Shown here one piece after another: positions 5,309-48,436 of a stretch of 64,000 nucleotides of DNA. The position numbers and the translations under genes are program-made. Source of the stretch: Chitinophagaceae bacterium (GTDB lineage Bacteria; Bacteroidota; Bacteroidia; Chitinophagales; Chitinophagaceae); the NCBI GenBank assembly GCA_022843585.1, contig JALHNJ010000001.1, positions 1,054,001 through 1,118,000 of the forward strand, in the 5' to 3' direction. The notes under the pieces were generated by a model. The model saw nothing but the letters and a program-made list of their open reading frames with translations, did not search any database and was not told where the DNA came from. Within the stretch, counting starts at the first letter, position 1, and every line of letters begins with the position of its first letter.

Positions 5309-5447
5309 ACTGATTTTTAAGTTATGCTCAAAGTTGACGATTCCCTGCCATAATCGTTGCAGAAAGTGGAAAAATATTAATTGTAACTGTTTTTATAACT
5401 GCTTTTTATTCCTTTTAACTTACTACTTTTAATTACGTTTTAACCTT

Positions 5448-5463
5448 CCTGTCGGCGGACAGG
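5448..5463. repeat. Short GC-rich palindrome in the 5' region of the papain-like protease gene
   Basis: CCTGTC-GGCG-GACAGG is a perfect 6-bp inverted repeat in otherwise AT-rich DNA, 16 bases before the ATG at 5479. Palindromes of this CCTGTCGGC type are often scattered in Bacteroidota intergenic DNA. It could also act as a leader hairpin near the ribosome binding site. Confidence 0.45.
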
Positions 5464-5478
5464 CTAAAATTTTTTACT

Positions 5479-15008: not shown

Positions 15009-15097
15009 CAGTTTTTGTTTTGAAAGTACGAATGTTGCCCGGTTTTGCCAATACCCGGAGGAGGGTAGAGATTGGCTTAGTTATATATATTGACTTT

Positions 15098-18000: not shown

Positions 18001-18540
18001 AGGTGGATTCAGATTTAGTATGGAATCTTCGCTCAAAGGGATACGGTCATATTTGTAAGTATATTTTGTAGGATTTATTATCTCTTCCATGTCCCAGCGC
18101 ATAATACTAAAATCCTCACGGCTACCGTAGCAGTACTTATTATTATAAGAAAAAATACCTTTCGTTAAAGCTCCTCCTTCTTCCAATTCTTCACTGTCAC
18201 CACTTGCAATAGTGGCTATGGCTTTCCCTGTTGCTACACTCCAGATTACGTTTATGTTAATTCCTGTGCCTAATAGATATTTTCCGTCATGGCTAAATGC
18301 AACATCATACCCATAGGTTTCATAATTATAGAAAGTAGAAATTTCAAACCCTATTTTGGTATCCCAGATCTTTACACTTCCATCATTGCAGGTGCTTGCT
18401 ATGTATTTTCCATCGGGGCTAAAGGCTACTCCAAAAACAGAAGAGCTATGCCCGGTTTGTACTACAAGGTCAATAGGTTGCGATGAACAGAATACAGCAT
18501 ATGTGATTGATATTGCTAATAGAATGTTTTTCTTAAACAT
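15098..18540 (-). pseudogene. Broken WD40-caspase paralogue (one frameshift, one in-frame stop)
   Basis: Read from 18540 this is a WD40-caspase of about 1147 codons like its neighbours: signal peptide (MFKKNILLAISITYAVFCSS), WD40 repeats, spacer and caspase domain. Two lesions break it. Near 17905 one base is missing: adding one A to the coding strand restores SSDDATIIIWDAQTG, the expected WD40 blade, and joins the two frames. At 15560-15562 an in-frame TAA replaces the Tyr of the conserved GGL-x-YDDLENLL (both paralogues have TAT). The stop falls between the catalytic His (codon 15644-15646) and Cys (codon 15494-15496), so no fragment holds an intact active site. The C-terminal 130 residues remain almost identical to the next paralogue. 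Recent decay or consensus sequence error are both possible. Confidence 0.85.
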
Positions 18541-18571
18541 AGTTAATCATGAATCTAAGCGGTACCAAAAA

Positions 18572-21500: not shown

Positions 21501-21811
21501 CTTACTGTGGTAATAAACAAAGCATCTGATGAAAAAAATATTTGGTGTACAGGTTGTCCCACATTTACTTTTCTGATTTCAAAACTGGTCTTAGCATCCC
21601 ATATTATAAATGTATTGTCCGCACTGGCCGTCGCTATCAACTTTCCGTCATTTGAAAAAGAAATTGAATTGATAACCTGCTGATGCCCCACCGGTACTTT
21701 CAGAACCGGTTTTTTTTGCTGTGCGGAAACGTTTGTTCCTGAACTTAGCAAAAGGAGAGCAAAATTTGTGGTACAAATTTTAGTAAATGAAAAGAAATGG
21801 TTGGTGGGCAT
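18572..21811 (-). CDS. Exported WD40-caspase protein, 1079 residues
   Basis: Signal sequence (about residues 1-30, ending NVSAQ), WD40-type repeats (about 35-110 and 320-440, for example GHQQVINSISFSNDGKLIAT), a spacer, and a C-terminal caspase domain (about 820-1079). The catalytic dyad is H898 in YSGHGLLSKDYDYYLS and C948 in LMLIDACHSGE, with IPAR before the Cys strand. The middle contains a Glu/Lys-rich helical stretch and a segment typical of these proteins, VYPFDQFDLKYNRPDKVL, also present in the two downstream paralogues. It starts 33 bases after the upstream paralogue ends and is followed after 31 bases by the broken copy, so the array is probably one transcript. It is the best-preserved sister of the pseudogene. 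Confidence 0.93.
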   Translation of the reverse strand: MPTNHFFSFTKICTTNFALLLLSSGTNVSAQQKKPVLKVPVGHQQVINSISFSNDGKLIATASADNTFIIWDAKTSFEIRKVNVGQPVHQIFFSSDALFITTVSGQNTAGLTSEKLEVKNWDTKTGKMLSQYQYSGLPTQLIIPASDHILIAENSAEMQKIATAAGNINFANPSNINKYTSTINYDSIAKASEKRSEELVKKMGSIDINDPKAVEEFQKNMMKEIMENVNAFNPLQKNYIQLDPKTLKPTGRLSVNFENAGYIKHNNTEYFISLEKETDYSTRKTIHTINIWELDKLTKSQSTKVPPIKKIPLSSQVYSIATSPARGFFTTLSRRNSSIHLWQINEAALLKEFSIKGKSFIGTEFSKDGNKLYAYSSTYPETYIEIWNTTTFQQETLIQLPLKYFTGRIAAEPSGESFLLTNMWNLIKINNAGDSTAEFRGRSASPGYYGFTPNGRDVYINYHGFPDMTEFLWSSTEAGVEYEAYKAGKNLTKAEKEKLVKQRMQLFPPTNADSYNGYNLLWDLTHGGAAVSKANTFTTGHKTISDDKKYQLENEKFESGNRTGNPQMITLLQQPVEGISKETADKLKKYRDPNSVYYKVMFADYLNSPVTLLINKKTNDSISLIKIDSLDWIMTLKNNYYMASKNGAKALSYVSGIQVYPFDQFDLKYNRPDKVLKAIGLAEPALIEAYRMAYIKRIKKAGIDTLQFKEEFELPEADISNRNQISSITKSKNLTLSIIASDKNSTLDRYNIWVNEVPLFGKNGKSIKSLNSKKLNTTVSVILSKGYNKIETSVTNVAGVESYRIPILVNFTPDNEPKEILHFIGIGIDKFADSKYNLQFSAKDIRDLSKKLKEKYGSNIIIDTLLNENVSASSIKALKQKLHKTTENDKVVIAYSGHGLLSKDYDYYLSTYSINFEKPEQGGLHYDDLENLLDSIPARRKLMLIDACHSGEVDKEDLVTLNATSDSLIKGLKPVAYKKENQLGLKNSFELMQSLFVNVGKNTGATIISAAAGTQFALERNDLKNGVFTYSILEAIKQNPTIKISVLKKIVGEKVDEITKGLQKPTTRNEMIAIDWPLY

Positions 21812-21844
21812 TTTACTAAATTTTATTAAATATTCAGATTTGCC

Positions 21845-24800
21845 TTATTTCACTACTTCTGTTGCCTTCTCTACTACGGATTTAGTTAATTGATTCAATT
21901 TGTCTTTCGTACCGCTAATTTCGAACTTGGTTTTTATTGCCTTATTCTGCTTCACATTTACAGTTATTGTAATGGTATCTCCTTTTACAGTATAACGACC
22001 ACTTAATGAATAGGCATCAGGAGAATTAGTGGCTGTTACATATACGATTTTGCTGTCCGTGCCTCTGGTGGCCAACTCGTTTAATTGAAGATTTACCATA
22101 CGGCTGAGTTCTAAATCATCGTCAGCAATTGTTTCATCGCTATTTTGAAAATTGCTGGCTGCGAACAGTGGTTTTTCTTGCGGTAAAATAATTTTAGCCA
22201 TTACTTCTTCATCTACTATACCAATATTAAAATTGGTATTGGTAACAACTTGTGGCTCCTGTCTGGCGCCATTTTCTTTTGATAATTCACTCACTGTTTT
22301 TTCTGCAGCATTAAACCAGCGGCTTACATTCAGGTATTTCCCATCTTCTAAAATATCTGGTTGTTGTTTGATGGCTTTTAATAAAGAATAGGTAAGCAAT
22401 CCCTGCGAATATCTTCCCATTTCATAGGCACTTTGGTTGCTGGCTGAAGCGGAGAGTATAAATAAGCCCGATTTTTCATTTAGTTTATCTATTGCTTTTA
22501 CCTGCTGCGCAGCATCATCATCTCTTGCTGCCATATAGTTTTGCTCATCGGCACCCATTTTTACAAAATCTTTAATCGCCTGCCCGCTATTGCAGGCATC
22601 AAATATTAAAATACGTTTTTGCGCCTTAATATTTTGTGGTTTCATCCATTCGGTAAGTTCTGCGGTACTGATACCCACATCGGCAACAGCGCTACCGGCA
22701 GTTAAAGATGAAGCATCCGCCGTTAGAAAATAAAATTGTTTTTGCTCTCCTTCCATTACGCCATGACCAGCAAAGAATATCAATAATATATCATTGGCAC
22801 TTGCCTTTTTGCCAATTTCTTCCAGGGTTTTTTTGATGCTGTTCTTTTCGGGTAGCTGGTATCTTTCTTTAGCTGTGGTTAGGTTATACATAAATACATG
22901 TTCTTTGCCATCGGAGTTTAATAACTTTTTTGCAGCGTTAGAAACAGCCGTAGAAATATCGTTAGCATCTTTGGCCGCATATTTCAGATCCAGTTCATCC
23001 CCCTTATAATCACTTACACCAACCATTACTGCATACAAGTTAGGTGGAGTGGTGGCTTGATTGCTTTTGTCTTCTTTTACTTTAAATCCACGGGATGATA
23101 TAGTATTGTCTGCTGTAAATGCTTTTACTGTTACCTGGTTCTCTACGCCGGCAATAAAATAAGGACTGAGTTCCGCTTTTTTTATAATCAACTCATAGAT
23201 GTTACCGTTCTTTTTTAATTGTGCCGGCTTATATGTTTTGGTAGGATTTCCATTTATTGAAAGAATAGTTTCTCCCAATCCTCCCCGGCGGGGAATAATC
23301 TTAAAATAATATTCATCGGTTTTGCTGCTTGCATCTTCTATTTCGGGTGTAAGGCCGCAAATATTTAACTGTTCCAGGGTTTTTGCATTGATGCTATCAC
23401 CAGTTGTAATCCTCTCTACAAGATTAGGTACCCACAATTGATTTTTTGCCTGGTCCAGCTCTATCACTTCTTCACCACAAACAAAGTAGAGCATTTTTCG
23501 GGCAGATTCCGTTCCATCATACCGGCCGAAATTGTCTTGCACTAAAAAGTCTTTGTTGCTGGTAACAAAATGTTTGTAGGCCAGTTTTACTTGTGGCAAT
23601 ATGTACACTTCCATCGCATCATCCGTAAGCACATATAGATATTTGCCAGATTTTCCATATGTAATTTCATTGCCTTTAAGTTTTTGTACCGTTGCTCCTG
23701 ATAGTAAGTTATGTATTCTTATGTTTTCGCCAGAATGTACTACCAGAATTTCATCGCTTACAAAATGAAATTCTATTCCTTTTCCCGGTTCTTTCAGTTT
23801 TGTAAGTATAGTTTCATTCACATTCTCAACAGGTGTTGTTACTATTTTTCCATTAGCATAAATAAGTTTTAGTTCGTTTTTATTTGGTACAAAACCTGCA
23901 TAATTTATATCATTTAGCGATGTTATCAATTTTCCTGAAGCTGTTTCCCAAACCTGCAAGAGTGATTCGTTGTTATCAAAACATAAAAAATATTTAGAGT
24001 CAAAGCTCATTTCTATGGTATGCGGGTAAGCTGTTCCAACGGTAACGGATTGTATGAGTTCTTGTGTGGCTAATGACCAAATCTTTACCTTGTTGCTTCC
24101 TCCCGTAATGATGTAGGCCCCATCCGGACTAAACCGTTGTTCTGTAAACATACTAATGCTATCTATAGTTAGCAATCGTTTATTGTCCGATAATCTAATT
24201 ACTTGTACTGAAAAATTATCATCATGCAATACATATTTACTGTTTGGGCTAAACTTGCTGAATGACTCATATGATCCTGATGCATCGCTTAGTGTTGTTT
24301 CATCACCACCTTCTGCATTAAAAACAACACTGCTTTCTCTTCCACCTGCTACTACAAAGAGGCTATCGTTAGCATTAAAATCTACACTAGTTGCCCATTG
24401 ATTATTAAATATTTTTTTATGAAAAACAATTTTGCCGGTAGCTGCTTCTATTTTTCTTACTACACCATCCCTGGAAGTAGTCAATATGTATTTTTCATCT
24501 TTAGACAGTTGTAAAGCGGTGAACCGTTCATTATGCGAACCATAGGTCATTTCTTTTTTTCCGGTTGTTGCGTTCCACCGGCTTAAAACAGGATCGTAGT
24601 TTCCAGCAAGTATGCTATTACTTTTTTTAAGATAGTTCAGGAAATAAAGAGCTTCTTTTCCGGATTGAAAATAAAATGTCAACTTATAAGTTGCAATATC
24701 CCAAACGCTGCAAAACCCACTTTTATCGCCGAGAGCAAATGTTTTTTTATCAGGAGATACTTTTATTCTATATATCCAGTCATTATGATTTTCAATTGCG

Positions 24801-25630
24801 CCAACAAAGTTGCCAGATAGTTTATTCCATATCCTGGCAGAATTATCGCTGGATGAAGTAATTATATTTCCGTCAGGAAGAAATTTTGCATTCCAAACCG
24901 TATTTGTATGACCGCTGTAAACCATTAGTTGTTTACCGGTTGCAGTTTCCCAAAGTCTTGCTGTTGAATCATCCGAAGCGGTGAGTAGTTGAGCGTCATT
25001 TTCAGAAAATTCTACATCAATAATCCGGCTTTGATGGCCTTCGAAGGATGCAGTAAATTTGCGTTGGTCGATGTCCCAAAGCTTCAAAGTAGCACCTCCA
25101 TACAAAGCAAGCATTTTGCTATTGTTGCTAAACTTTAGCTCTTCGTTAAAAAAGGTTTGCGCAATTGTATCGGCCAGGTGAAAAGTTGCGGCATTATAAA
25201 TTCGTATGCTGGAACCTCCTTTTTCACCATAATATTGTCCGCTAACGGCAATCCATTTGCCATCTGTGCTAATAGCCAATCCTGGAGAAAAATCGTAGCT
25301 TCCTAATAATATTGATTTGCCAGTTTGAATATTATACGCTTCTGCAGGAGTAAAACCTGTAATAATAAGGTAGTTGTTATCTGTTGTAAAAGCCATTTCG
25401 GTTGGATGTCCCCGGTTAAGGCTGGCTAATAATTTGCCGGTTGAAGCTTCCCATATTTTGATCTTACCATCCAGATCTCCTGATGCATATAATTTTTCAT
25501 TTGGACTAATGGCCACTGCTTTCATCTCATTACTATTCGCACTAGGTAATACCAGTTCGGGCTGCTGGGCCAATAATTGGGACACACATAGTAAGCAATA
25601 AGTCAGGCCAATCAATTTCAGAGTTTGCAT
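21845..25630 (-). CDS. Exported WD40-caspase protein with extra C-terminal domain, 1261 residues
   Basis: First gene of the tandem array. The ATG at 25630 is chosen over one 45 bases upstream because it begins a good signal peptide (MQTLKLIGLTYCLLCVSQLL, then AQQ). WD40 repeats fill about residues 30-560, followed by further propeller-like sequence to about 720. The caspase domain spans about 864-1120, with H956 in FFAGHGVME and C1013 in ILIFDACNSGQ. Unlike its paralogues it has a further C-terminal region of about 100 residues (from about 1160) whose final part (YSLSGRYTVKGDTITITVNV) resembles the accessory domain found in TolB-like or adenylate-cyclase-associated proteins; this is a weak inference. 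It is the most divergent array member. Confidence 0.93.
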   Translation of the reverse strand: MQTLKLIGLTYCLLCVSQLLAQQPELVLPSANSNEMKAVAISPNEKLYASGDLDGKIKIWEASTGKLLASLNRGHPTEMAFTTDNNYLIITGFTPAEAYNIQTGKSILLGSYDFSPGLAISTDGKWIAVSGQYYGEKGGSSIRIYNAATFHLADTIAQTFFNEELKFSNNSKMLALYGGATLKLWDIDQRKFTASFEGHQSRIIDVEFSENDAQLLTASDDSTARLWETATGKQLMVYSGHTNTVWNAKFLPDGNIITSSSDNSARIWNKLSGNFVGAIENHNDWIYRIKVSPDKKTFALGDKSGFCSVWDIATYKLTFYFQSGKEALYFLNYLKKSNSILAGNYDPVLSRWNATTGKKEMTYGSHNERFTALQLSKDEKYILTTSRDGVVRKIEAATGKIVFHKKIFNNQWATSVDFNANDSLFVVAGGRESSVVFNAEGGDETTLSDASGSYESFSKFSPNSKYVLHDDNFSVQVIRLSDNKRLLTIDSISMFTEQRFSPDGAYIITGGSNKVKIWSLATQELIQSVTVGTAYPHTIEMSFDSKYFLCFDNNESLLQVWETASGKLITSLNDINYAGFVPNKNELKLIYANGKIVTTPVENVNETILTKLKEPGKGIEFHFVSDEILVVHSGENIRIHNLLSGATVQKLKGNEITYGKSGKYLYVLTDDAMEVYILPQVKLAYKHFVTSNKDFLVQDNFGRYDGTESARKMLYFVCGEEVIELDQAKNQLWVPNLVERITTGDSINAKTLEQLNICGLTPEIEDASSKTDEYYFKIIPRRGGLGETILSINGNPTKTYKPAQLKKNGNIYELIIKKAELSPYFIAGVENQVTVKAFTADNTISSRGFKVKEDKSNQATTPPNLYAVMVGVSDYKGDELDLKYAAKDANDISTAVSNAAKKLLNSDGKEHVFMYNLTTAKERYQLPEKNSIKKTLEEIGKKASANDILLIFFAGHGVMEGEQKQFYFLTADASSLTAGSAVADVGISTAELTEWMKPQNIKAQKRILIFDACNSGQAIKDFVKMGADEQNYMAARDDDAAQQVKAIDKLNEKSGLFILSASASNQSAYEMGRYSQGLLTYSLLKAIKQQPDILEDGKYLNVSRWFNAAEKTVSELSKENGARQEPQVVTNTNFNIGIVDEEVMAKIILPQEKPLFAASNFQNSDETIADDDLELSRMVNLQLNELATRGTDSKIVYVTATNSPDAYSLSGRYTVKGDTITITVNVKQNKAIKTKFEISGTKDKLNQLTKSVVEKATEVVK

Positions 25631-25720
25631 CAACAAATTTTCTGAAAAATTACCACTATTAGCAGGCTTTTCCAATACCGTTCACAGGGTAGTTTGGATT
25701 TGAGGATCATTGCTAAGCAT

Positions 25721-32870: not shown

Positions 32871-35111
32871 ATGTCCAAGCATTTGTTAATCACCGTATGT
32901 ACTCTAATTATTACCAGCCTTGTCATAGCACAGGAAAAAAGAGCACTTATTATTGCTATCGATCAATATGAGCCACCAGCCACCTATAAACCGGCGAGTA
33001 CGGCCCGATCTAATTTCAGAAATTTAGATGGTTGTGTAAATGATGGCCGTTCCATTCAATCTATTGTAATATCTAAATTCCAGTTTGATGCAGCCAAAGT
33101 AGACACTTTGTATAATGATGCTGCCAATAGGGCGGCTATCCTTAAATCAATGAACGATTTATTGGATAAAAGCAAAGCCAATGATATTGCCTTTATCTAT
33201 TACGCCGGACACGGAAGCCAGGTGCCAAACAGTCTTGCAAAGGAAGCAGACAAAAAAGATGAATCAATGGTGCCCAGTGATACGTATAAGGAAGGAGTGG
33301 AGGACATACGGGATAAGGAGCTGGCAAAAATTTTTAATGCCTTTATAGATAAGGGTGTAAAACTAACGGTGATAATGGATTGCTGTCATAGCGGATCACT
33401 TTCCCGTGGACCCAATGCCCCTGGCAAATCAAGATTTATTGCCGATGCCAATTACGATGCAAAAGATGCCTCACAACCAGTGCCGCCAGAAACAAGATCA
33501 GAAGGAAATTTTCTTATAATTTCTGCTGCACAGGATAATGAATTTGCACAGGAGCAGCGGGATGAAAATAATATTCCCCGTGGCGCCTTTACCATCGCTT
33601 TAACCCAGGCTTTGGAACAACAATCTGTAAATGCGTCTGTAATAAATTTATTTACAAGTTTGCGTGCCATTTTAAAGAGCAATGGGAAGAAACAAGAACC
33701 TGTATTGGCGGGTAAGCCTGAAAGGCAACAACAAACTTTGTTTGGTATTGAGAAAGGAACTCTCCCTGATAAATCATTAATTGCTATTTCCGGTTTTGAA
33801 AATGGAAAAGTTTTTTTACAGGGTGGTTTTGCATTAGGATTGAATAAAGAAAATGAGTTAGTGAAATTTAATGGAAAAGATACACTGGTAAAAGTGGAAA
33901 TCGATTCTGTAATGGGCGTTAATAAATCAAGAGCCAAGGTGGTGAAAGGCAACATTAAAGATTTGAAGGCCGGCAACTTGCTGGAAGTAACTAATTGGGT
34001 GTCTTCTGCAGCACCGTTATTAAAAGTATATGTTCCAGCTGTAAATATGCTATATGAGGATATTGCAAAGCTGGCGGCGGTTAACAATGAGTTGCGGCAA
34101 TCCAAAAAAATAAATTGGGTAAATAAATTGGAAAAAGCAGATCCATATACGACTGTTTTTTATGATGGTAATAAATACAAAGTGAATGTAGATGGTAAGG
34201 ATGTGCCAGCACCAGCAAGTCTTACTGCGGCTAATCTTTTACAGTTGGGCAAACAGGATTCATCTTTCTATTTTGAATTACCTCCATCCAAAGCATTGGC
34301 TGATGCAGTGAAAGGAAAATTACGTTCCAACAGGAGTATTATGATTGTTGATAATTCTTCTGATGCACATTATGTTTTATATGGAACTATTGATGAGAAT
34401 GGAAAACCGGCTTATGGATTTCGCCGGGCACAAACATCATCGAGAGATAGCCTGGAATCAATGCCGGTACAAACAAAAAGTTTTGTGCTGGAAGATGGCG
34501 GTAATGAAGCCAGCACTGCTGTAACTGATAACTTGTATGAGTATGCGATGCGGCTTTCTAAAATAAGAGGGTGGGTGCAGCTATCAGGACCAAAGGATGG
34601 GGAGAGCAATTTTCCTTTTCACCTGGAAATTGTAAATAAGGCAACGGGTGAAACAATAAATAACCAGGAATATAAAGTGGGTGAGAATGTTGCTTTTAAT
34701 TTGGTAGCTAACGATGGATACACCGGTGCCAACAGGGTAAAAAGATTTGTATATGTTTTCCTGATTGATAAGGATGGAAATATGACATTGGTTTATCCAA
34801 GCGAAAGTGATGGTAATGTGGGCAACCAGTTTCCTAAGTATGAAAACTTTAACCTTGTAAAGAAAGTATTTCTTTTTGAAGGAGAAGTAGCAGAACCAAT
34901 TGGAACAGATAATTATTATGTATTAGCTGCTGATGAAGCTATTCCTAATTATGCTATGGTATTTAACCAGGAAGGAGTAAGAGCGGCTGGGGGTGTTGAA
35001 AATCCATTGGGTAATTTGTTGAACATGGGAAATGAAGGCGGAACCCGTTCATTTAAAAAATCAGTATCTAACTGGAATCTTATTAAACTGCCGGTAAAAT
35101 CAAAATACTAA
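32871..35111 (+). CDS. Exported caspase with DUF4384-like C-terminal domain
   Basis: A 746-residue protein: signal peptide (MSKHLLITVCTLIITSLVIA, then Q), metacaspase-type domain (about 23-290) and a beta-rich C-terminal region (about 590-720) of DUF4384 type (FVYVFLIDKDGNMTLVYPSE). The catalytic residues are H114 in YYAGHGSQVP and C172 in IMDCCHSGS, the classic metacaspase DCCHSG; in metacaspases the Asp before the Cys contributes to a pocket for Arg or Lys. The middle region (about 300-590) has repeated beta segments of no known family. It is followed after 113 bases by a small exported protein gene on the same strand, a pairing that resembles the other small gene near the double caspase. 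Confidence 0.92.
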   Translation: MSKHLLITVCTLIITSLVIAQEKRALIIAIDQYEPPATYKPASTARSNFRNLDGCVNDGRSIQSIVISKFQFDAAKVDTLYNDAANRAAILKSMNDLLDKSKANDIAFIYYAGHGSQVPNSLAKEADKKDESMVPSDTYKEGVEDIRDKELAKIFNAFIDKGVKLTVIMDCCHSGSLSRGPNAPGKSRFIADANYDAKDASQPVPPETRSEGNFLIISAAQDNEFAQEQRDENNIPRGAFTIALTQALEQQSVNASVINLFTSLRAILKSNGKKQEPVLAGKPERQQQTLFGIEKGTLPDKSLIAISGFENGKVFLQGGFALGLNKENELVKFNGKDTLVKVEIDSVMGVNKSRAKVVKGNIKDLKAGNLLEVTNWVSSAAPLLKVYVPAVNMLYEDIAKLAAVNNELRQSKKINWVNKLEKADPYTTVFYDGNKYKVNVDGKDVPAPASLTAANLLQLGKQDSSFYFELPPSKALADAVKGKLRSNRSIMIVDNSSDAHYVLYGTIDENGKPAYGFRRAQTSSRDSLESMPVQTKSFVLEDGGNEASTAVTDNLYEYAMRLSKIRGWVQLSGPKDGESNFPFHLEIVNKATGETINNQEYKVGENVAFNLVANDGYTGANRVKRFVYVFLIDKDGNMTLVYPSESDGNVGNQFPKYENFNLVKKVFLFEGEVAEPIGTDNYYVLAADEAIPNYAMVFNQEGVRAAGGVENPLGNLLNMGNEGGTRSFKKSVSNWNLIKLPVKSKY

Positions 35112-38871: not shown

Positions 38872-39711
38872 ATGAATAAAATGTTGTTTACTGACGGAAC
38901 AAATGGCGTAAGAGACGTACAGTCGCAGGAAGAACTAGAATTGCTGATAACATCCTCAAGAGATAAGGATAAGATAAGGATATGGGTATTCAGCAGCAAC
39001 GAATGGATTGGCCTCGCTGCATTTTCCAAACAATTTCCTGATGCTTTTAGGAAAGCAAAGAATATTTCTACAGAGAATAATCAAAAGAATATAGAAGCAA
39101 CTGTCAATACTAATAAGTCAGGCAGCTCTCGCTGGCTTAAGAAATCCTTATATACGCTAGGTGTTGCCATCATTACTTTTCTAGTTTTCAACTTTACAAA
39201 AATAAAATGGAAAGAAGCTGAACAATTAACCACATCAGCTATCAGGCCGGCCAATGTGCCGCCAATGGATATGGACTCTTTGATAGTAGATATTGAAACG
39301 GCGAGGGGACAAGCAATAGATAAGCATACAAAAGCAAATCTACGGATGCGCAATACCTGGCCGGAAAGAATTTTATTACAATTAAAATCAGACAAAGAAT
39401 CAACTAATGGAGACTCCCGTTTCTTTAACATTGACGTTATGCTTGATAATACTACTGGCTTTACCATTGATAAGGCGATAGTTAAAATATCTGTATGGAA
39501 TAGTAATAAGGTGACCTTTACTGATACACTTGCTTTTAACAACATCAAATATGATAAACCTATTAAACGAGAATTGGATTACAAGTATAAAGGTGATAGC
39601 CTTTCTGTTTCCTTTGAATCAATAAAAGCAAAAGCATTCAACTTCTGTTATTCGGCAGCTACAAAAAATAATTCAGGCAACTATAATGATCGCTGGTTCT
39701 GTAGAGAATGA
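38872..39711 (+). CDS. Single-pass membrane protein, first gene of the SEDS-transpeptidase cluster
   Basis: A 279-residue protein. The N-terminal 60 residues are cytoplasmic and loosely resemble a GYF_2-like module (QSQEELELLITS and IRIWVFSSNEWIGLAAF); this is a weak inference. One membrane segment lies at about 94-110 (YTLGVAIITFLVFNF). The C-terminal 165 residues would be periplasmic, beta-rich, and hold FFNIDVMLDNTTGFTID and a region with SVSFESIKAKAFNFCY. No known family is recognised. It is followed after 34 bases by the ATPase gene, in the same direction, so it is likely part of the same unit; there is no promoter box I can see exactly. Confidence 0.75.
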   Translation: MNKMLFTDGTNGVRDVQSQEELELLITSSRDKDKIRIWVFSSNEWIGLAAFSKQFPDAFRKAKNISTENNQKNIEATVNTNKSGSSRWLKKSLYTLGVAIITFLVFNFTKIKWKEAEQLTTSAIRPANVPPMDMDSLIVDIETARGQAIDKHTKANLRMRNTWPERILLQLKSDKESTNGDSRFFNIDVMLDNTTGFTIDKAIVKISVWNSNKVTFTDTLAFNNIKYDKPIKRELDYKYKGDSLSVSFESIKAKAFNFCYSAATKNNSGNYNDRWFCRE

Positions 39712-39745
39712 CAACAAACTATAAACAAAAACTACAAACTTTTAT

Positions 39746-42121
39746 ATGGCGCTATACTATCTCCCCGTTCTAATTCGCAGTGACAGGTATTTTGTTACAC
39801 GACTTGAGCATACAATAAAATCTGTACAGGAAACCGATTTTAATTTTGTAGTATATGCAGAAGACAGGGTACTTACACCGCTGCTTACAATCGAAGACCC
39901 GGCAAAAATTGTACTGAACCAGATGGCGCCATCGTATAAACAAGATATTCCATTGCGGGAATGTCATATTTCATTACAAAAGAATGGGGATGATTTTGAA
40001 CTGATCATTAAAAAGAGCAGTTCCTTTTCAGTAGAACCATTTCAGGATGAAGAAACCGGTTTACGGCTTGATTATTCTGCCGATCAAAAAAGAGTCACCA
40101 TAGGAATTTATAAATACCGGGTAGAGAAAACAGCTTTTAATCTCCGGGTTACTTTGCAGCAGGATGCGAATGAAAATTACTCTGGCGAATTTCAGTTTGC
40201 CATCGTTCAGTCGAAAGATTGTCAGCGGGTAGTTATAGACTTTGGTAGTGAAGCCAGCCAGGTAGGATATAGGAACTGCGGGCCGCAGTCAGCTATTGTT
40301 TCTTATGATATATTAGAGAATGTTATCAGCCAGTTGAATATTACAGATAATAGCAAGAACTGGAAACGGGATGATTTTTTGAATAATGAGGCCGGACAAA
40401 ATATGCTCTATCGTTCTTTCTATGCGGTTAAAAAAAGGATAACCACCACAGAAAGAAAGACATTCCCTTTCAACTTCACTGATAATTTATTGAATGACGA
40501 AATGAGGTTATTTATAACGAGGAAGGAAGTAGCTGCTACAGAATTTTCTTTCCGGGATGATTATGAGATCATACCCAACCTGAAATTAGGTATTGAAAAA
40601 AGCCTGCAACTTTCAATGGGGAATTATACAGAAGATTACAGCATCCGAACACATAAGAAAGAATTGATCAGTGCAGTATTGTTACGTTTACTCCGATTGA
40701 TGATAAACACCAAGCCATCTTTTCAAAAAGGAGGCATGATCGTAACATTGCTGGTGCCCAATATTTATACTCAGCATGATGTTTTTGAGATGCTGAACGA
40801 ATTAAGAGCACAAACAGCTAATTTATTATCATCATTGCAAATTAGTAATGATGATCTGTATATCGAGTACGAAACGATCTCTGAAAGCGATGCGGCTTTT
40901 ATGGGTTACCAGCAAACACATGCCGATGAAGTAAACTTATCGAATGGAGAAATTGCATTGGTGATCGATTGTGGTAAAGGTACTACCGATATTTCGATGG
41001 TACTGGCAGATGATAATGAAAATTATTCCAGCTTTTTCAGGACTGGTTTTGCCGGTGCTGGAAATGTATTACTCTATGGCTTTGCAGAAGATTTTCTTAC
41101 ACAAGTGCTTCGGGCTATTCCGGGCAGCAATGATATTTCTGTAAAAGATTTTATCAACCGCCATATCCTCGACCAAAACCTTACAGCAGATGTGCTGAAT
41201 TTTATCCAGCTGATGGAAGAGCAAAAGAAAAAGTTCAGCAAACTACAACCGATAAGTGTTACAGCATTTTCTCAGTTAGCAGAAAACTCTTTTAGTACAG
41301 AAAGAACGATTGGTAACCTGCATAAAGACCAGTCTACATTGCTGCAATATGCCGATGTGATCCTTAAGGACAGAAGCATCCGCTGGGATGAGGAAGTAAC
41401 GGGTATTATTGATAAGGCCACTGATTGTATTGTGCATTGCATTATTGCCAGTATTAGCGACGTAATTACCAAAGACATTAAGAAAAGAATAAAAGCCGTA
41501 ATGCTTAGCGGCAGGGCTTTTTATTTTGATGCATTGAAAATAAAACTGGAACGGGAACTGAAAGAATTATTGGGCACAGCAATTAAAATAAATACAATTC
41601 CACCGGGCCGGGCATTGAACAATAAAAATGTAGCCATACATGGTGCCTTTAGTGGTGCATATAAGATTACTGATTTTACCGGCATTCCTATTGATAAGAA
41701 AGAAGGTTTGTCGAAGAACAATGATGTGCTGAATAATAATATCTACCTCTACCGGGGTATTAAGATTGAACCCGGCAATGATATTTTGTATAATGCGGCT
41801 GTTGTACGGCGTAATAACCAGGAATTAAAATCCTTTAAGAATAAAACGGTTGATATCTATTTTACCCGTGACAATATTTATCTCCGCCTGATGGAAAATC
41901 AACGGGTAAAGGATGTTCGGTCATTATACAGTGTACTTACTTCAGTAGCAGAAACTTATTCGCCAATACAGGATATGAAAGCTATCTCCATGTTCCCAGG
42001 ATATACAGGTGAACTTGCTTCGATAAATGCAGTTTATTATGATATGATAAAGGAGAAAAAAACAGCGAATGAAAAACCAGTTAAGAAAAGGCAAGGCATT
42101 CTTCAGTTCTTTCAATTTTAA
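39746..42121 (+). CDS. Actin/Hsp70-fold (ASKHA) ATPase
   Basis: A 791-residue cytoplasmic protein. After a beta-rich N-terminal region of about 150 residues come the three nucleotide-binding signatures of the actin/Hsp70/sugar-kinase superfamily: phosphate 1 VVIDFGSEASQVGY (about 161-174), phosphate 2 LVIDCGKGTTDISM (about 405-420) and an adenosine-type motif AVMLSGRAFYFDAL (about 584). The substrate domain of Hsp70 is absent. The family link is firm; the specific role is not. Its place before a membrane coiled-coil protein and a SEDS-transpeptidase fusion suggests a role like that of FtsA or MreB, an inner-face filament or switch guiding wall synthesis. SrfB-like proteins are another possible relation. 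Confidence 0.85.
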   Translation: MALYYLPVLIRSDRYFVTRLEHTIKSVQETDFNFVVYAEDRVLTPLLTIEDPAKIVLNQMAPSYKQDIPLRECHISLQKNGDDFELIIKKSSSFSVEPFQDEETGLRLDYSADQKRVTIGIYKYRVEKTAFNLRVTLQQDANENYSGEFQFAIVQSKDCQRVVIDFGSEASQVGYRNCGPQSAIVSYDILENVISQLNITDNSKNWKRDDFLNNEAGQNMLYRSFYAVKKRITTTERKTFPFNFTDNLLNDEMRLFITRKEVAATEFSFRDDYEIIPNLKLGIEKSLQLSMGNYTEDYSIRTHKKELISAVLLRLLRLMINTKPSFQKGGMIVTLLVPNIYTQHDVFEMLNELRAQTANLLSSLQISNDDLYIEYETISESDAAFMGYQQTHADEVNLSNGEIALVIDCGKGTTDISMVLADDNENYSSFFRTGFAGAGNVLLYGFAEDFLTQVLRAIPGSNDISVKDFINRHILDQNLTADVLNFIQLMEEQKKKFSKLQPISVTAFSQLAENSFSTERTIGNLHKDQSTLLQYADVILKDRSIRWDEEVTGIIDKATDCIVHCIIASISDVITKDIKKRIKAVMLSGRAFYFDALKIKLERELKELLGTAIKINTIPPGRALNNKNVAIHGAFSGAYKITDFTGIPIDKKEGLSKNNDVLNNNIYLYRGIKIEPGNDILYNAAVVRRNNQELKSFKNKTVDIYFTRDNIYLRLMENQRVKDVRSLYSVLTSVAETYSPIQDMKAISMFPGYTGELASINAVYYDMIKEKKTANEKPVKKRQGILQFFQF

Positions 42122-42131
42122 TAGTAACAAC

Positions 42132-43151
42132 ATGATTATGCGAAATAAAATATATCTCACTTTGATGTTAGTGCTACTATCAGCAAGTTTGTATGCACAA
42201 ACGGATACTAAATCGATCAGGATAGTGGATACATTATCAGCAGCGGAAAAAAGCAGCCGGAATCCGGTCATCCTTCGTTCGGAACTGGACTCGCTGATAA
42301 AATTAAACCTTGTCACTCTGCCCCAGCAAGAAGTTAAGGAGCCTGAAAAAGTTGAAACAACCGATTCCCAGCAATATATATTGGCTGGCCTGGTTGCTAT
42401 TATAGTTTTATTGATCATTGTGATTTATTTGTTGTTCCGTCACCAGCGAAAAATAAATAGAACCATTGCCGGTTTTCAGGAAGAAGCAAAGCTATTATCC
42501 GCAAGAACGGATAATGGCCTTTCTGCCCTAGCTAAAGACAAGAAGAGAAAACTATCTCCTCAGGCAATGGAGAATAAGATCAACGATCTGAATGCGGAAT
42601 TACTGAAGCTATCCAAAGAAAATGAAGGGTTAAGCCTTGTAATAAAAGAGTACAATGGTATACAGCATGAGTATGATTCGCTAAAGCACGGCATTCAAAA
42701 GGCATACAAAGTAAAAAACTATCCGGGCTATGATAAGACCAAGGATGAAAAAGTAGCTATGCAAACTGTGTTGGAAACGGAGAATGCAGTAGTTGGATTC
42801 GCTTATGAAAAGTTTTTAAAGCCCATTCTAACTATAACGGACGCTAATAAGAATAATCCTGCTAAACTTAGTGAGGCTGATAATGAAAAGTTGTTAGACC
42901 TGCTGATTTCACTCTCCCTTTTATACATAGAATATTTATACCTGCGGGTAAATGATTTGGCAATCGGCGGACGCATTGCAGAACGAATAAAAGAATTTTC
43001 CAAAGGAAAAGGTCCTGATACATCGTTGCTTAAAAAAATGAATACAGAATTTGGCAGCAGAGCATTGGTAGTAAGGATAGCCTTGAACAAAGCAGGTTTG
43101 CCCCGTTTATCTTATCCTGTTTTTGATGAAACAAATCTAAATAATCAATAA
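42132..43151 (+). CDS. Exported/membrane coiled-coil protein
   Basis: The ATG at 42132 is chosen because it starts a signal peptide (MIMRNKIYLTLMLVLLSASL, then YAQ); an earlier ATG at 42069 lies inside the ATPase gene. The 339-residue product has a periplasmic segment (about 24-80), a membrane segment (about 82-104, ILAGLVAIIVLLIIVIYLLF) and a cytoplasmic or inward helical part with coiled-coil character (about 105-200, including ENKINDLNAELLKLSKENEG). The rest is helical, ending in LPRLSYPVFDETNLNN. No family is recognised. The position between ATPase and SEDS-transpeptidase, and the layout, recall linkers such as MreC or EzrA, but this is inference. Confidence 0.8.
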   Translation: MIMRNKIYLTLMLVLLSASLYAQTDTKSIRIVDTLSAAEKSSRNPVILRSELDSLIKLNLVTLPQQEVKEPEKVETTDSQQYILAGLVAIIVLLIIVIYLLFRHQRKINRTIAGFQEEAKLLSARTDNGLSALAKDKKRKLSPQAMENKINDLNAELLKLSKENEGLSLVIKEYNGIQHEYDSLKHGIQKAYKVKNYPGYDKTKDEKVAMQTVLETENAVVGFAYEKFLKPILTITDANKNNPAKLSEADNEKLLDLLISLSLLYIEYLYLRVNDLAIGGRIAERIKEFSKGKGPDTSLLKKMNTEFGSRALVVRIALNKAGLPRLSYPVFDETNLNNQ

Positions 43152-43159
43152 GCCGATTC

Positions 43160-46100
43160 ATGCTGAAATTCTTCACCAGCCTTAGTTTTTTATATGCATT
43201 CACTATTGTGGTGCTGCTGTTGTATGGATTTTTCTTTTACAAGGGGTTTATTAAGAATGGTTACCAGAAAAGAAGATTCCCGGCTATTTTTTTGTTGATC
43301 GGTGCTGCCTGTTTTTCATTTTTGTATTTTAATATTCATGCGCCGCTGTCGCTAAAAGCATTTAGCAATCTCGATCATCATTTTATCCGGCATGATGGGT
43401 TTAAAGTAGCAGGTAAAATAGAATTGGGAAGAACGGATACCGTTAATTACAAAACCAACTCCTATAATAGCTTTGTGCTGCAAAAAAAGGAAAGTAGCTT
43501 AAACCTGGTCTCTTCTTATTCTGAAGAACCATTTTATACGGCAACAGCCAATTCTTATAAACTTCTTTCAGTTAACTATCCTGCTAATGGACATAAGCTT
43601 TCTTTCCAATTAGATTCGACTATTTTAAATATAAGATCGGTGGCCGATACAAGCTTTGAATTAAGTATTGGCAATACGCTTATTACAAAAACAGGAAAGA
43701 CCATCCGCAAAGGACTGAGTGGCTGGAATGTTTTCAAAGACGATATACAATTTATAAACTCTTCGTGGTATACTAATGAGCAAGTTGTAAATGTGCTTCA
43801 TAGTATACTTTTGCTGCGGGATGATGTTTCAAGAAACAGGGGCGGAGAACTAAAATATTTTTTATCAGGTAAGCTGTTTGCGTATTGCCGGGCAGTAAAG
43901 TATGATGAAAACTTTGTTGCCGTTGCAAATCTTGCTTTTAATAAGCCAATCGAAGATAAAAGTACCGTGGCCTGGGGAATCAGCTTTCTGGACAATAATA
44001 AAAACCAGTTTCGGGTACAGTATCTCGGGGCTGATAGTTTCGCTTTGTTCAACCGTTACCCGGTATCCTATCCTTTAACAGAGGAGGAGAAAAGCAACTG
44101 GACAAAACACAGTGTCAACAAATTCCTGGTGGCAGAGGCAAAAGATATGGAACAGATGCCGGCTGTTTTTAATGAAGGGTTTATGTTCGCCCCTTTTGAT
44201 GGTGATGCTACAATTGATTTTTCACCTGTATTACTCACCTATCAAAAAGCAAAAGCCAATACTCCGCTGGAGTTACAGGCCAAATTTATGAATGGAAGGG
44301 GAATACCGGTCATAAGTGCTGGTAATAAATTACTCTTGCCTGCAAAGTCAGCAGATTTTAGCTGGATGTTTTCGGTAGAAAATTCTTTTAATTGGAATTT
44401 AGGGTCTACAAATTTATCAGCAGGCAACTGGCAATTACTTTTATTTGGAACATTACTGCTCTTTTTCCTGCTTGTTTTTTGTAGTTCGTTAATTAAGCCA
44501 GTGTACCAGCTAAGCTGGATATGGCAATTGCTATCATGTGTTACTATTGTATTACTAACTACCCGCTTCTTTTTATATTGGCGATACAAAACATTTCCTC
44601 CTTATGAAGGATTAGACCTGCCATCTGTACAGCAATTGAATAGTCCCTGGAATTTTGGAATTATAGTTTTAACCGGAATTATTCTGGCAATTATTTTTGG
44701 ATTTAATTTTCTGAAGTATTTGTATAACCGCATCCGTAAGCAGGCAGCTTCCATTTTAAAACTATCGTACCAGCAACCCAGCAGTAGCAAAATCTTTTTT
44801 ACAGAGGATAACATTTCTTCTGTAATGAATAAGAATGCGTTGGTAAAGTGGAAAGGTGTAAGAGTTATTTTCTTTGCAGCATGGATATTTATTTTATTGG
44901 CGGCGGGTGGTTTAGCTGCCTTCAATAATTTTGATCCAACAACCTGCCGCCACCTTGCTATTGGACTAATGCTGTGCTATTTTCTTTTTATTTATATTTC
45001 CTATCGCCATTCTCCGTTGGTCGTATCCTCAGAGAAAAGCTGGTGGGGACTTAATACTGCCAAATCATTTGATATTATTATTAACAACCCGGTAAAGGTT
45101 TTGTTATCTGTGAGTTTGTTAGGTTTATTTGCATTTGTTGATATTGGCTTTGCAATTATCTTTCTCAATTTCTTATTATTTAATGAAGCATTTCTCTGTA
45201 TCAACTATGCCATCGCTGGTTTATCAGCAGGTAGTAAGAAGAATGCTTCCTTATTTGGAATGCTGGGATTTATTTATTTACTGTCATTTGCCATCAATCT
45301 TGTTTACGGCTCTTATATATTCAAATACCTGCTGGAATTACCCCAACTGCTTTATTTAGCAGGTTATGTTTTATTTGCTATTGCCATTTCTTATGCGGTG
45401 GTAAGATTATTACACAAGTCCAGCGAACGAAAACGAATACTGTCGGGTTTATCTTCAGCCATCTTACTTTTTGCCATAGCATTCCTGTTTTTTCCCAAGG
45501 AAAGAATTTTAAGCAAAGCTGCCGTTACAAAATACCGGATTGATGTAATGACAATGCCGGTTGATAAAGCCATTGAAATAGCATACGAAGATGGTAAAAC
45601 ATATGAACCTGTTATCAGGGCGGCACAAAACCAATGGTTCATCAATACCTTTATCTATGAAAAAAATAACCCGGGTGTAAACAATGCAGGATTTAATCTA
45701 TTGCCACATGCACCGCAGAATAAAGGAGCAAAATATAATGCACAGGCCACTGACCTTGTAGCCAGTCGTTTCTTTATTGCTGAACATGGTAAATGGTCAG
45801 TTCTATTATATGTGTTGTTATTGTTAGTTCCCACTACTTTATTAGCTTCATTTTATAAACTCTATCCTGATTTTACGAATCGTATCAATAGCAACTATCC
45901 AACGATTACAGCTGGATTTTCCTTACTGAATTATTTATTGATAACTGCACTATTAGTAATATTGGCAGCTACGGGCCGGTATATTTTCTTTGGACAGGAT
46001 TTGCCGTTTGGAAGTATTCTCAGCAAGCAATCAATTTTATTTCCTTCTATTTTAATCATACTGATTGTCTATTTATTCAAACGTATTCCACTTGAGCAAT

Positions 46101-48436
46101 ATCCGAATAGAAAAAAATTAATTCCTGGCTCTATAGTATTTATTGGATTGGCTTTGCTTTTATTCTTAGTAACTCCGGTATTTAATAAAGGGAAAGAATT
46201 TGGTGTGGCAGATCTCGCTAAAGAAATGGATTCGCATGTGCAATTTCGTTTGCAGCCTTTGTTTGATTATTTTGATTCTTCAAAAGCTACACGCAAATTA
46301 TCAATGATCAAAAAAGATAAGTTGTTTACTGATTCCTTGCGAAAATTACTGGCTATTGGTTTTATTGATGATGCAGGTGAGTATTTCAGAAAGGAAGTTG
46401 AAGCCTATATAAAAACTGATTTCTCCCGCCATCTTGATCAGCGAAGAATGCTCTACCTTGATCTCTATTCAGGAAAACCCCAATTAGCGGTGAACGATAA
46501 TTATTTTCGGATAGAACCACCACCACATTTGCAACAATATTGGGCAGGGAATGTGTTTGGGGATAGCAGTAATTATAATATTAGTTTATGGTCTGCTGCA
46601 GATGGCACCGTTTCTTACAAAAGAATTACTGGCAGCTCAGCAGCTGAAAATACTAGCCTGGGAGATGGGCTGCAACTTTTATTTACAAAAGTCGCAGCAA
46701 AAAATTCTGAAAATAAAATTTACCTGGTAAATAGTTCAGCATCGTCGTATACAATTGCAACGAAGGAAGGCAATAGCATGTTGTCACAGAATGATACGAT
46801 TCAGATTCGTAATCCTGACAGAATACGGGTTGTCAATGCTAAAGGAGTGGATATGATTTTGGTAATACAGCCAGATGCATTTATGAAAAATTATTATGTA
46901 AATGGAAGCCGGTTTTATGTTTACCCACTAGCAGAAGATTTTATTTGGGCAAGAAATTTTGCGGAGAGTATCTCATCTGAGTACACTGCTAATGGGCAAC
47001 CTAAAAAAAATGCTTTCGTATCATTAGACGCAATACTGATGGATTCTTTATCTGTAAAGATTAAAACAATGCTCAATGCAGATACATCTTATAAAAAAGG
47101 AGCCGAGTATGGGATTTGTATTGCTGATGGTAATGGAAGGCTGATTGCTATGTCCGATTTTATTAAAGAAATGAACAGGCCTGATCCAAATGATAAAGCA
47201 GCTTTTAGTAAAGTAATAAGAAGTGACAATGGTTATGTCTCCCAATCACTATTAAGAAAACAAATCGGTAATATAAATTTATTGCGAATGAACCCAGGTC
47301 CGGGGTCTACTTTAAAACCTATTATATTTTCTGCTATCGCTTCGCAATTAAATCTCGACTGGGATAAATTTGCTGCTGAAGGTTTTTCGCAGAAACAAGC
47401 ATTTTTTGGTGGAGAAAAAGTGGCTGAGTATGACTTTGAAAAAAACAATGGTCGTATTAGTTCTGTAGTAGATTATCTCAGGTATTCTGATAATTATTAC
47501 CACTCTAACTTATTGTTGCTCGGCTCTTATTCACGACAAGGGTTGAGAGATTTATTGACCAAACATTTCGCCACCAAAAATCCTGAATCAAATTTTCATT
47601 GGCCCTACTTTAGTTATAATGGAAAACAATACTGGCTTAATGGATTTGAAAACTGGCCGGGTTATTCAAATGGTAAAGCCAATTTTGGCTCAGATAGTTC
47701 ATTTGTATCAACAGGATTGTTTAATAATTATGGCATATACACCTTTCATGCAAGAAAGGGATATGATAAGTTCTCCTCGGTATATGATTCTTCACTTTTT
47801 CAAACAGCCTATAAAAAATCAGGATTTATTTTGCCGGAGTATGCCTTGTTCGACCAGAAAGGAACGGGCATGGATAATGGTAAGCCCAATGAAGTGTTCA
47901 TGTCTTCTTTCAGAGGACATGTAAAAGGTAGCAGTCAGGTAATGGTGCCGCCGGTAAAAATGCTTGACGCTTTTGGTAAATTGGTAAGCCAGAATAAAAA
48001 CTACTCATTGACACTAAACCCTTATGCAGCTGAGCCATCTTTTAATGCTTTTGACGTAGACAACTCAGTTAGTTACAGTAATTATCTATCCATAACAAAA
48101 GAAAAAGTTTTTGAAGGACTCAAACAAGCATTATTGCGGGGAACAGCAGCAAGACTGGGGACGATGCTAAAAAATGGAACTCCCTATTATTACTATGTAA
48201 AAACCGGAACAACTGGTGATGATGCTGCAAAAGTAAAATCGAAACTATTCGTTATTATTATTTCTGAAAAGGATGTTACGAATCCGGACTTTAATTTCCG
48301 GGAGAATAAATTTTTCACCATCTATTTTACTTCACAGAATGGCCCGGCTAAGCAAAATGAAGAATTTCAGGCAATGATCATTAAATATGTGCAGGAATCA
48401 GATGTGTTCAAAAAATATATGAAGGGGAAAAATTAA
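43160..48436 (+). CDS. Putative SEDS (FtsW/RodA-like) and penicillin-binding transpeptidase fusion, 1758 residues
   Basis: N-terminal membrane segments (to about 60), a long extracytoplasmic part (about 65-420), a cluster of membrane segments (about 425-1015) and a long C-terminal periplasmic part. The C-terminal half has the three transpeptidase motifs in order: SxxK at S1383-K1386 (GPGSTLKP), SxN at S1443-D-N1445 and KTG at K1681-T-G1683 (YVKTGTTG). The membrane core ends like FtsW/RodA: D865 in ATDLVASRFFIAEHGKW aligns with the catalytic Asp of HTDFIFAV, followed by TGRYIFFGQDLPFGS. So glycan polymerisation and crosslinking may be joined in one chain. The SEDS part is diverged and less certain than the transpeptidase part. 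It is the last gene of the cluster; its stop overlaps the convergent gene. Confidence 0.8.
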   Translation: MLKFFTSLSFLYAFTIVVLLLYGFFFYKGFIKNGYQKRRFPAIFLLIGAACFSFLYFNIHAPLSLKAFSNLDHHFIRHDGFKVAGKIELGRTDTVNYKTNSYNSFVLQKKESSLNLVSSYSEEPFYTATANSYKLLSVNYPANGHKLSFQLDSTILNIRSVADTSFELSIGNTLITKTGKTIRKGLSGWNVFKDDIQFINSSWYTNEQVVNVLHSILLLRDDVSRNRGGELKYFLSGKLFAYCRAVKYDENFVAVANLAFNKPIEDKSTVAWGISFLDNNKNQFRVQYLGADSFALFNRYPVSYPLTEEEKSNWTKHSVNKFLVAEAKDMEQMPAVFNEGFMFAPFDGDATIDFSPVLLTYQKAKANTPLELQAKFMNGRGIPVISAGNKLLLPAKSADFSWMFSVENSFNWNLGSTNLSAGNWQLLLFGTLLLFFLLVFCSSLIKPVYQLSWIWQLLSCVTIVLLTTRFFLYWRYKTFPPYEGLDLPSVQQLNSPWNFGIIVLTGIILAIIFGFNFLKYLYNRIRKQAASILKLSYQQPSSSKIFFTEDNISSVMNKNALVKWKGVRVIFFAAWIFILLAAGGLAAFNNFDPTTCRHLAIGLMLCYFLFIYISYRHSPLVVSSEKSWWGLNTAKSFDIIINNPVKVLLSVSLLGLFAFVDIGFAIIFLNFLLFNEAFLCINYAIAGLSAGSKKNASLFGMLGFIYLLSFAINLVYGSYIFKYLLELPQLLYLAGYVLFAIAISYAVVRLLHKSSERKRILSGLSSAILLFAIAFLFFPKERILSKAAVTKYRIDVMTMPVDKAIEIAYEDGKTYEPVIRAAQNQWFINTFIYEKNNPGVNNAGFNLLPHAPQNKGAKYNAQATDLVASRFFIAEHGKWSVLLYVLLLLVPTTLLASFYKLYPDFTNRINSNYPTITAGFSLLNYLLITALLVILAATGRYIFFGQDLPFGSILSKQSILFPSILIILIVYLFKRIPLEQYPNRKKLIPGSIVFIGLALLLFLVTPVFNKGKEFGVADLAKEMDSHVQFRLQPLFDYFDSSKATRKLSMIKKDKLFTDSLRKLLAIGFIDDAGEYFRKEVEAYIKTDFSRHLDQRRMLYLDLYSGKPQLAVNDNYFRIEPPPHLQQYWAGNVFGDSSNYNISLWSAADGTVSYKRITGSSAAENTSLGDGLQLLFTKVAAKNSENKIYLVNSSASSYTIATKEGNSMLSQNDTIQIRNPDRIRVVNAKGVDMILVIQPDAFMKNYYVNGSRFYVYPLAEDFIWARNFAESISSEYTANGQPKKNAFVSLDAILMDSLSVKIKTMLNADTSYKKGAEYGICIADGNGRLIAMSDFIKEMNRPDPNDKAAFSKVIRSDNGYVSQSLLRKQIGNINLLRMNPGPGSTLKPIIFSAIASQLNLDWDKFAAEGFSQKQAFFGGEKVAEYDFEKNNGRISSVVDYLRYSDNYYHSNLLLLGSYSRQGLRDLLTKHFATKNPESNFHWPYFSYNGKQYWLNGFENWPGYSNGKANFGSDSSFVSTGLFNNYGIYTFHARKGYDKFSSVYDSSLFQTAYKKSGFILPEYALFDQKGTGMDNGKPNEVFMSSFRGHVKGSSQVMVPPVKMLDAFGKLVSQNKNYSLTLNPYAAEPSFNAFDVDNSVSYSNYLSITKEKVFEGLKQALLRGTAARLGTMLKNGTPYYYYVKTGTTGDDAAKVKSKLFVIIISEKDVTNPDFNFRENKFFTIYFTSQNGPAKQNEEFQAMIIKYVQESDVFKKYMKGKN

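Follow-up and report, generated by a model that had tools for sequence, protein, structure and literature searches.

SEDS proteins have been known as polymerases since 2016 and are normally identified with sequence models, and the FtsWI and RodA-PBP2 pairs are served by FtsA or MreB and by RodZ/FtsN-type linkers. Can a further synthase of this kind exist in a form that such models miss? The question is raised by a four-gene cluster (P1 to P4) in the genome of a Chitinophagaceae bacterium (assembly GCA_022843585.1), located in a 64,000-nucleotide stretch of contig JALHNJ010000001.1 (positions 1,054,001 to 1,118,000, forward strand), referred to here as the window. Computation shows that P4 combines a SEDS fold and a class B penicillin-binding protein (PBP) fold, that its catalytic residues are invariant, and that P2, P3 and P4 form a conserved module. 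We consider it probable that the cluster is an additional envelope synthase, with P4 as a one-chain bifunctional peptidoglycan synthase that P2 controls through P3 and P1. P4 would then be a SEDS branch wholly missed by the Pfam model, in which a single chain holds polymerase and cross-linker and the gene is linked to that of an ATPase. The original prediction, made from the sequence alone, had placed four genes in one direction here, and the open reading frame (ORF) calls bear this out:

38872-39711, + strand: P1, 279 amino acids (ORF call)
39746-42121, + strand: P2, 791 amino acids (ORF call), putative ATPase of the ASKHA (Hsp70/FtsA/actin) superfamily, in a family of its own
42132-43151 (longest ORF from 42069), + strand: P3 (ORF call), signal-like segment, short stretch, one transmembrane (TM) segment and a coiled-coil-like C-terminal region
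43160-48436, + strand: P4, 1758 amino acids (ORF call), predicted SEDS-class B PBP fusion

The gaps between P1 and P2 (34 bases) and between P3 and P4 (8 bases) are read directly, while the gap of 10 bases predicted between P2 and P3 holds only with the internal ATG at 42132 as the start of P3; this is residue 22 of the longest ORF, which overlaps P2, and it precedes a signal-peptide-like stretch. The G+C content of the operon (0.370) is close to that of the window (0.376).

The two halves of P4

The features of P4, all on the + strand, are as follows:

43160-44431, +: residues 1-424, two N-terminal hydrophobic segments (hydropathy) and a further domain of unknown fold, presumably extracytoplasmic
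44507-46099, +: SEDS domain, residues about 450-980, with ten TM helices in the predicted structure and, as we interpret it, an additional helix pair between TM6 and TM7
45536-45538, +: R793, just after TM7, candidate equivalent of RodA Arg210 (register from hhalign, presumed role)
45623-45790, +: motif of extracellular loop 4 (ECL4) and TM8, AAQNQWFIN...Q862..D865..R870..E875HG, residues 822-877 (family alignment)
45752-45754, +: Asp865, candidate catalytic residue, within the ECL4/TM8 motif
45971-46024, +: ECL5 motif TGRYIFFGQDLPFGSILS, residues 938-955 (family alignment)
46112-46192, +: PBP transmembrane anchor, residues 985-1011 (hydropathy, predicted structure)
46517-47011, +: PBP pedestal, residues about 1120-1284 (VIA-align matches begin at model residues 559-568)
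47012-48433, +: transpeptidase domain, residues about 1285-1758 (profile and structure comparison)
47306-47317, +: SxxK, S1383-T-L-K1386, with S1383 as candidate nucleophile (46/46 copies)
47486-47494, +: SxN, S1443-D-N1445 (46/46)
48200-48211, +: KTGT, K1681-T1684 (46/46)

The SxxK (S1383), SDN (S1443) and KTG (K1681) motifs were found in the predicted order, and both membrane stretches quoted in the original prediction, ATDLVASRFFIAEHG and TGRYIFFGQDLPFGS, are present in P4. Conservation was assessed over 46 complete copies, namely that of the window and those of 45 of its 51 relatives, six incomplete ones having been dropped. SxxK, SxN and KTG follow the class B PBP order in all 46, and S1383, K1386, S1443, N1445, K1681-T1684 and D865 are identical throughout, as are Q862, R870, E875, W826, G856, R469, W474, R475 and P481, together with T938, F943, F944, G945, Q946, D947, P949 and S952 of ECL5; R793, D661 and G663 are each kept in 45 copies. 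The motif residues thus appear to be conserved more than chance would give.

Structure prediction and fold search, which had been proposed as checks, support both folds. The C-terminal half is modelled as a class B PBP, a transpeptidase with a pedestal and no GT51 domain. The membrane core is predicted to have the ten-segment SEDS fold on which the original prediction had staked its case, with a helix beginning at model residue 446, directly after D865 (model residue 445), and the extra TM6-TM7 helices at model residues 273-305 and 309-330. Profile searches were less uniform: PF00905 misses the window's P4 but picks up 17 of the 40 family members searched, at E <= 0.1 with a best value of 8.7e-8, and PF01098 matches neither P4 nor any of the 40. 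P4 itself gave nothing significant in Pfam, NCBIfam or PDB sequences (the last by phmmer), and an hmmsearch of the PDB with its membrane profile returned cytochrome fragments only.

Several results weigh against reading the membrane half as an active SEDS polymerase under the control of P2. Besides the missing PF01098 match, hhalign of the SEDS half alone with a FtsW/RodA profile was not significant (0.7%), and it is in this weak alignment that D865 falls on the SEDS catalytic Asp; the combined profile gave 5.0% (P 0.008). Against a fusion-only SEDS profile the score of 24.8 stayed below the maximum of 27.6 from 40 block-permuted nulls, whereas the combined profile scored 30.2 against a null maximum of 25.2. 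A hidden Markov model of the P4 membrane region, run against 31 SEDS sequences (19 FtsW/RodA, 11 fusions and one further FtsW), reported two at E <= 100, of which only that one FtsW matched well, in an alignment that stops short of D865. Foldseek hits for the SEDS domain had E-values of 7e-3 or worse and TM-scores of 0.2-0.34 in the top five. The catalytic Asp of SEDS proteins lies between two lipid cavities, and the original prediction had made a cavity position of D865 a condition; in the model, the loop before D865 (model residues 431-443) lies below 50 in predicted local distance difference test score, too low to place D865 in the cavity, and a joint predicted TM-score of 0.59 leaves the mutual placement of the two halves unfixed. 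Among the 46 copies nothing conserved corresponds to RodA Pro257(-Glu258), the pair at Asp minus 5 and minus 4: at residue 860, 26 copies have N, 8 have S, 4 have I, 3 have P and 2 have T, and residue 861 is either T or A. Inspection of P4 by eye showed no QPSE-like motif, and the only evidence that connects P2 with P4 is gene order. According to PMC10449877, Asp262 is the catalytic Asp of RodA, Arg210 and Arg48 contact lipid in simulations, and changing Pro257 abolished activity in E. coli. It is plausible that D865 and R793 are the counterparts of Asp262 and Arg210.

P2, its neighbours and the conserved module

The actin/Hsp70-type ATPase proposed for P2 is supported by motif and profile evidence, which points to an ASKHA protein. 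Its candidate nucleotide-binding motifs are:

40238-40261, +: phosphate-1 motif DFGSEASQ, D165-Q172 (D165, G167 and Q172 invariant in 30/30 rows)
40880-40990, +: SESDA (379-383) and phosphate-2 motif DCGKGTTD (408-415) (family alignment, DnaK-set alignment)
41510-41515, +: G589-R590, at what we take to be the adenosine-motif position (invariant in 30/30 rows)

Across 30 sequences DFGSE..Q, SESD, D.GKGT.D.S and GR are invariant or nearly so, and the SESDA/DCGKGTTD region aligns with the EPTAA...DLGGGTFD region of a DnaK set. Small-profile hhalign gave 90.6% for an Hsp70-like protein, 81.4% for FtsA, 80.7% for a DnaK-type protein and 46.5% for MreB, and the P2 profile reached Hsp70 in the PDB at E 0.003; Pfam gave a weak Actin match (E 0.023), and PF06723 matched 6 of 30 family members weakly (best 0.0072). 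We assign no ASKHA class to P2, because its PDB and Pfam profile matches (Hsp70, actin, MreB, DDR) are only weak. P2 shares the phosphate-1, phosphate-2 and adenosine motifs with FtsA, MreB and DnaK, and differs from them in an N-terminal part of its own of about 155 amino acids and in two motifs specific to its family, SESDA and GKGT; nor was an Hsp70 substrate-binding domain recognised in it. P2 is single-copy in its genome and is not among the four PF06723 matches there, which include MreB and an FtsA-like frame; being outside that set and distinct from the dcw FtsA, it was rejected as MreB or FtsA proper.

P1 is single-pass, as predicted, with one TM segment (92-111) between a small N-terminal part, presumably cytoplasmic, and a C-terminal part, and P3 has two hydrophobic segments, 27-44 (signal-like) and 99-127. 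Pfam/NCBIfam searches found no known family for P1 and only coiled-coil noise for P3; resemblances to protocadherin, RIFIN and a phage tail terminator in the Pfam scan were set aside as coiled-coil or low-score noise. Both proteins may be likened to RodZ/FtsN/MreC-type linkers in having one TM segment with presumed parts on both sides, an analogy accompanied by no sequence similarity in those searches.

A contig scan of 84,980 species with two peptide patterns drawn from the P4 family itself, which more distant relatives elsewhere may escape, returned 51 loci, 50 labelled Bacteroidota and one 'uncultured bacterium'. Twenty close loci (L021-L040) have P4 identities of 49-92% (complete copies), compared with about 20-23% in the rest, and in a FastTree of the 46 copies this close clade stands apart from a broad one that includes Taibaiella, Edaphocola, Emticicia, Saprospiraceae, Bacteroidales and others. 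In the order, relatives occur in 8 of 298 genomes (that of the window included) and 5 of 140 genera; none was found in three further genomes of the window's genus among the 298. One search, scoring at most three candidates per genome, also gave eleven weaker matches (E 0.002-0.08).

P2 adjoins P4 in 46 of the 51 loci. The remaining five (L024, L041, L055, L056, L063) lie at a contig edge, which falls within P4 or at most 112 bases from its start; wherever the pairing could be checked, P2 goes with P4. In 45 loci P2 is encoded upstream of P4 in the same direction, separated from it by one or more genes on that strand (in L045 the middle ORF overlaps P2); the exception is L060, where P2 is divergent and no gene intervenes. 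In L070, two P2-type frames (2-2266, cut by the locus end, and 3464-6151) lie upstream of P4 with a 350-amino-acid frame between them. P3 homology was compared over 13 representative distant loci and four Bacteroidales ones. A profile of 18 close P3 proteins matched the middle gene of the 13 distant loci (hhalign 97.5%, E 7.1e-12), which the four Bacteroidales middle genes also matched (75.0%, E 2.5e-5); compared directly with P3, these four showed no link (3.3%). Of the 20 close loci, 17 hold P1 and three are truncated by contig ends; no P1 turned up in the 31 distant loci. The predicted conservation of all four genes thus stands widely for P2-P3-P4, the wider conserved core, and only within the close clade for P1.

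Known synthases, proposed mechanism and rival readings

P4 shares with RodA-PBP2 and FtsW-FtsI (PDB 8tj3, 6pl5, 8bh1, 8p1u) both folds, the order of elements (ten-TM SEDS, PBP TM, pedestal, transpeptidase), the candidate catalytic Asp and the transpeptidase motifs. It is unlike them in being one chain, in its extra N-terminal domain and preceding TM segment, in the two extra TM6-TM7 helices of our model reading, in lacking Pfam-level SEDS similarity and in the absence of Pro-Glu before the Asp. The genome also encodes separate FtsW and RodA proteins, both Pfam-recognised, five PF00905 matches (two of them next to RodA and in the FtsW region), MreB, and further ASKHA proteins including an FtsA-like frame of 464 amino acids near ftsW, which makes the cluster additional equipment; replacement of MreB or RodA was rejected, as both are kept.

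The original prediction held such fusions to be rare and knew of no such system in the phylum. SEDS-PBP fusion as such is already known, also in Bacteroidota, so P4 is not unique in the phylum. A search for both domains in one reading frame gave canonical fusions in four or more of 41 phylum genomes (1222-1357 amino acids per frame) and, with the N-terminal third of the L132 fusion as query, in 8 of 296 order genomes. Those of the window's bacterial family are L132:9040-13104 and L151-L157, seven further full frames read in order genomes. The L132 fusion matches PF01098 (E 2.5e-44) and PF00905 (E 6.1e-21) and has PP2C, FHA and Ser/Thr kinase genes as neighbours (Pfam), as do, by eye, the other order genomes with such fusions; clusters of this kind resemble the actinobacterial arrangement. 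In print, PMC10449877 mentions natural fusions (citing the Rhodococcus RHA1 genome) and working artificial ones, and PMC6207328 reports a working RodA-PBP2 fusion; a search of open-licence papers gave no description of the P4 family or of FHA-linked fusions in Bacteroidota.

P4 matches a profile of 11 canonical fusions at 97.0% (E 9.6e-11), a score that we take to reflect a joint path over both domains, because each region alone scores lower (SEDS P 0.011, transpeptidase E 4.7e-7). P4 thus looks like a fast-evolving branch or relative of the SEDS-class B PBP fusions. The FHA/PP2C/kinase-linked fusions (L132, L151-L157) have its domain order, and five from the window's family share, by hydropathy and spacing only, a TM6-TM7 stretch about 50 residues longer: the DLGPA-to-HTDM distance is 148-151 residues in these five, compared with 96-98 in two fusions from other parts of the phylum, and the longer stretch may correspond, in our reading, to the two extra helices of the P4 model. 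They differ from P4 in length (about 1210-1425 amino acids), in being Pfam-recognised (L132) and in their FHA/PP2C/kinase neighbours in place of P2 and P3.

In the proposed mechanism, the SEDS domain would use D865 to polymerise a lipid-linked precursor, of which lipid II is the most likely. Covalent fusion of the PBP helix (985-1011) would take the place of the non-covalent docking by which SEDS and PBP proteins usually pair, and the transpeptidase domain, carried on its pedestal, would cross-link the strands through S1383. P2, as an Hsp70/FtsA-type ATPase, may switch or position the synthase through P3, with P1 also relaying its control in the window's own clade; these roles would parallel those of FtsA or MreB and of linkers of the RodZ/FtsN type. 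For the cluster, the enzymatic activity, the substrate, the topology and the control by the ATPase are what we infer.

The shared domain order and two-helix insertion (spacing and hydropathy) would also suit a reading in which P4 is the FHA/PP2C/kinase-linked system with other partners and an unchanged function, and the ATPase is incidental. The two types (8/298 and 8/296 genomes) share no genome, which is expected by chance at such frequencies, and in L057, a gut Bacteroidaceae metagenome-assembled genome, P4 is followed, two genes on, by an FHA gene (13759-14535, PF00498, E 4.3e-7), a possible link between the families. Against this stand the tie of P2 to P4 in every testable locus and the neighbours listed, among which no PP2C or kinase genes were noticed by eye (one listing covering 15 loci); in the window, no FHA, PP2C or kinase gene was found by Pfam in four neighbours or by eye among the other ORFs. 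We regard this reading as unlikely. Slightly less probable still is a SEDS domain whose lipid-linked substrate is not lipid II, or whose glycan product is unusual, the transpeptidase attaching or cross-linking this product into a special layer. The fold is kept while the surroundings of the active site are rewritten (W826, Q862, R870 and FFGQDxP family-invariant, Pro-Glu lost), and P4 is patchily distributed beside FtsW, RodA, MreB and PBPs, but its transpeptidase keeps all canonical motifs and the class B fold, which points to peptidoglycan stem peptides.

The extreme divergence of the SEDS half, its missing Pfam match and the lost Pro257 equivalent could instead mean a membrane scaffold or regulator without polymerase activity, leaving P4 in effect a transpeptidase on glycan strands from other enzymes. 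D865, R870, E875 and the ECL5 motif are nevertheless invariant, and R793 is kept in 45 of 46 copies, at family identities down to about 20%, a pattern hard to explain without an active site, and we think this quite improbable. That the core is a glycosyltransferase-C type fold (WaaL/AftA-like), resembling SEDS only as a helical bundle, strikes us as very improbable. The absence of other folds from the structural match lists is no evidence against them. On balance, the original interpretation as a whole, a self-contained machine with polymerase and cross-linker in one chain, is partly supported: the evidence bears on the two folds, the ASKHA nature of P2 and the conserved gene set. A bolder version, in which P2-P3-P4 is a third self-contained Bacteroidota envelope machine, independent of the Rod complex and divisome, where an Hsp70-type ATPase drives the one-chain synthase and the rewritten site takes a non-lipid II precursor for a specialised wall layer or structure, is speculative and in our judgement unlikely to hold in full. 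If active, P4 offers a naturally fused SEDS-PBP for structural and coupling studies and possibly a third wall machine to set beside FtsA-FtsWI and MreB-RodA-PBP2; having lost the Pro before the catalytic Asp, it would also be a natural test of which SEDS residues are needed.

Neighbouring genes

In many distant loci P4 is followed by two further genes of about 148 and 390 amino acids (e.g. L043:14749-15195 and 15209-16339), which do not follow it in the window; by eye, the shorter product is single-pass and the longer one has an N-terminal helical part, a TM segment and an SH3-like stretch. HExxH membrane proteins are encoded two to three genes downstream of P4 at L060:16991-17662, L065:14180-14908, L070:14019-14672 and L071:14855-15553, that of L070 with a weak Peptidase_M50B match (E 2.2e-4, below the cut-off). 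Near the cluster, window positions 32871-35111 encode a protein with a caspase domain (Peptidase_C14), whose start resembles a signal peptide and which matches DUF4384 weakly. At window positions 10254-25675 there is a series of large genes on the minus strand, in some of which WD40-like stretches can be made out by eye.

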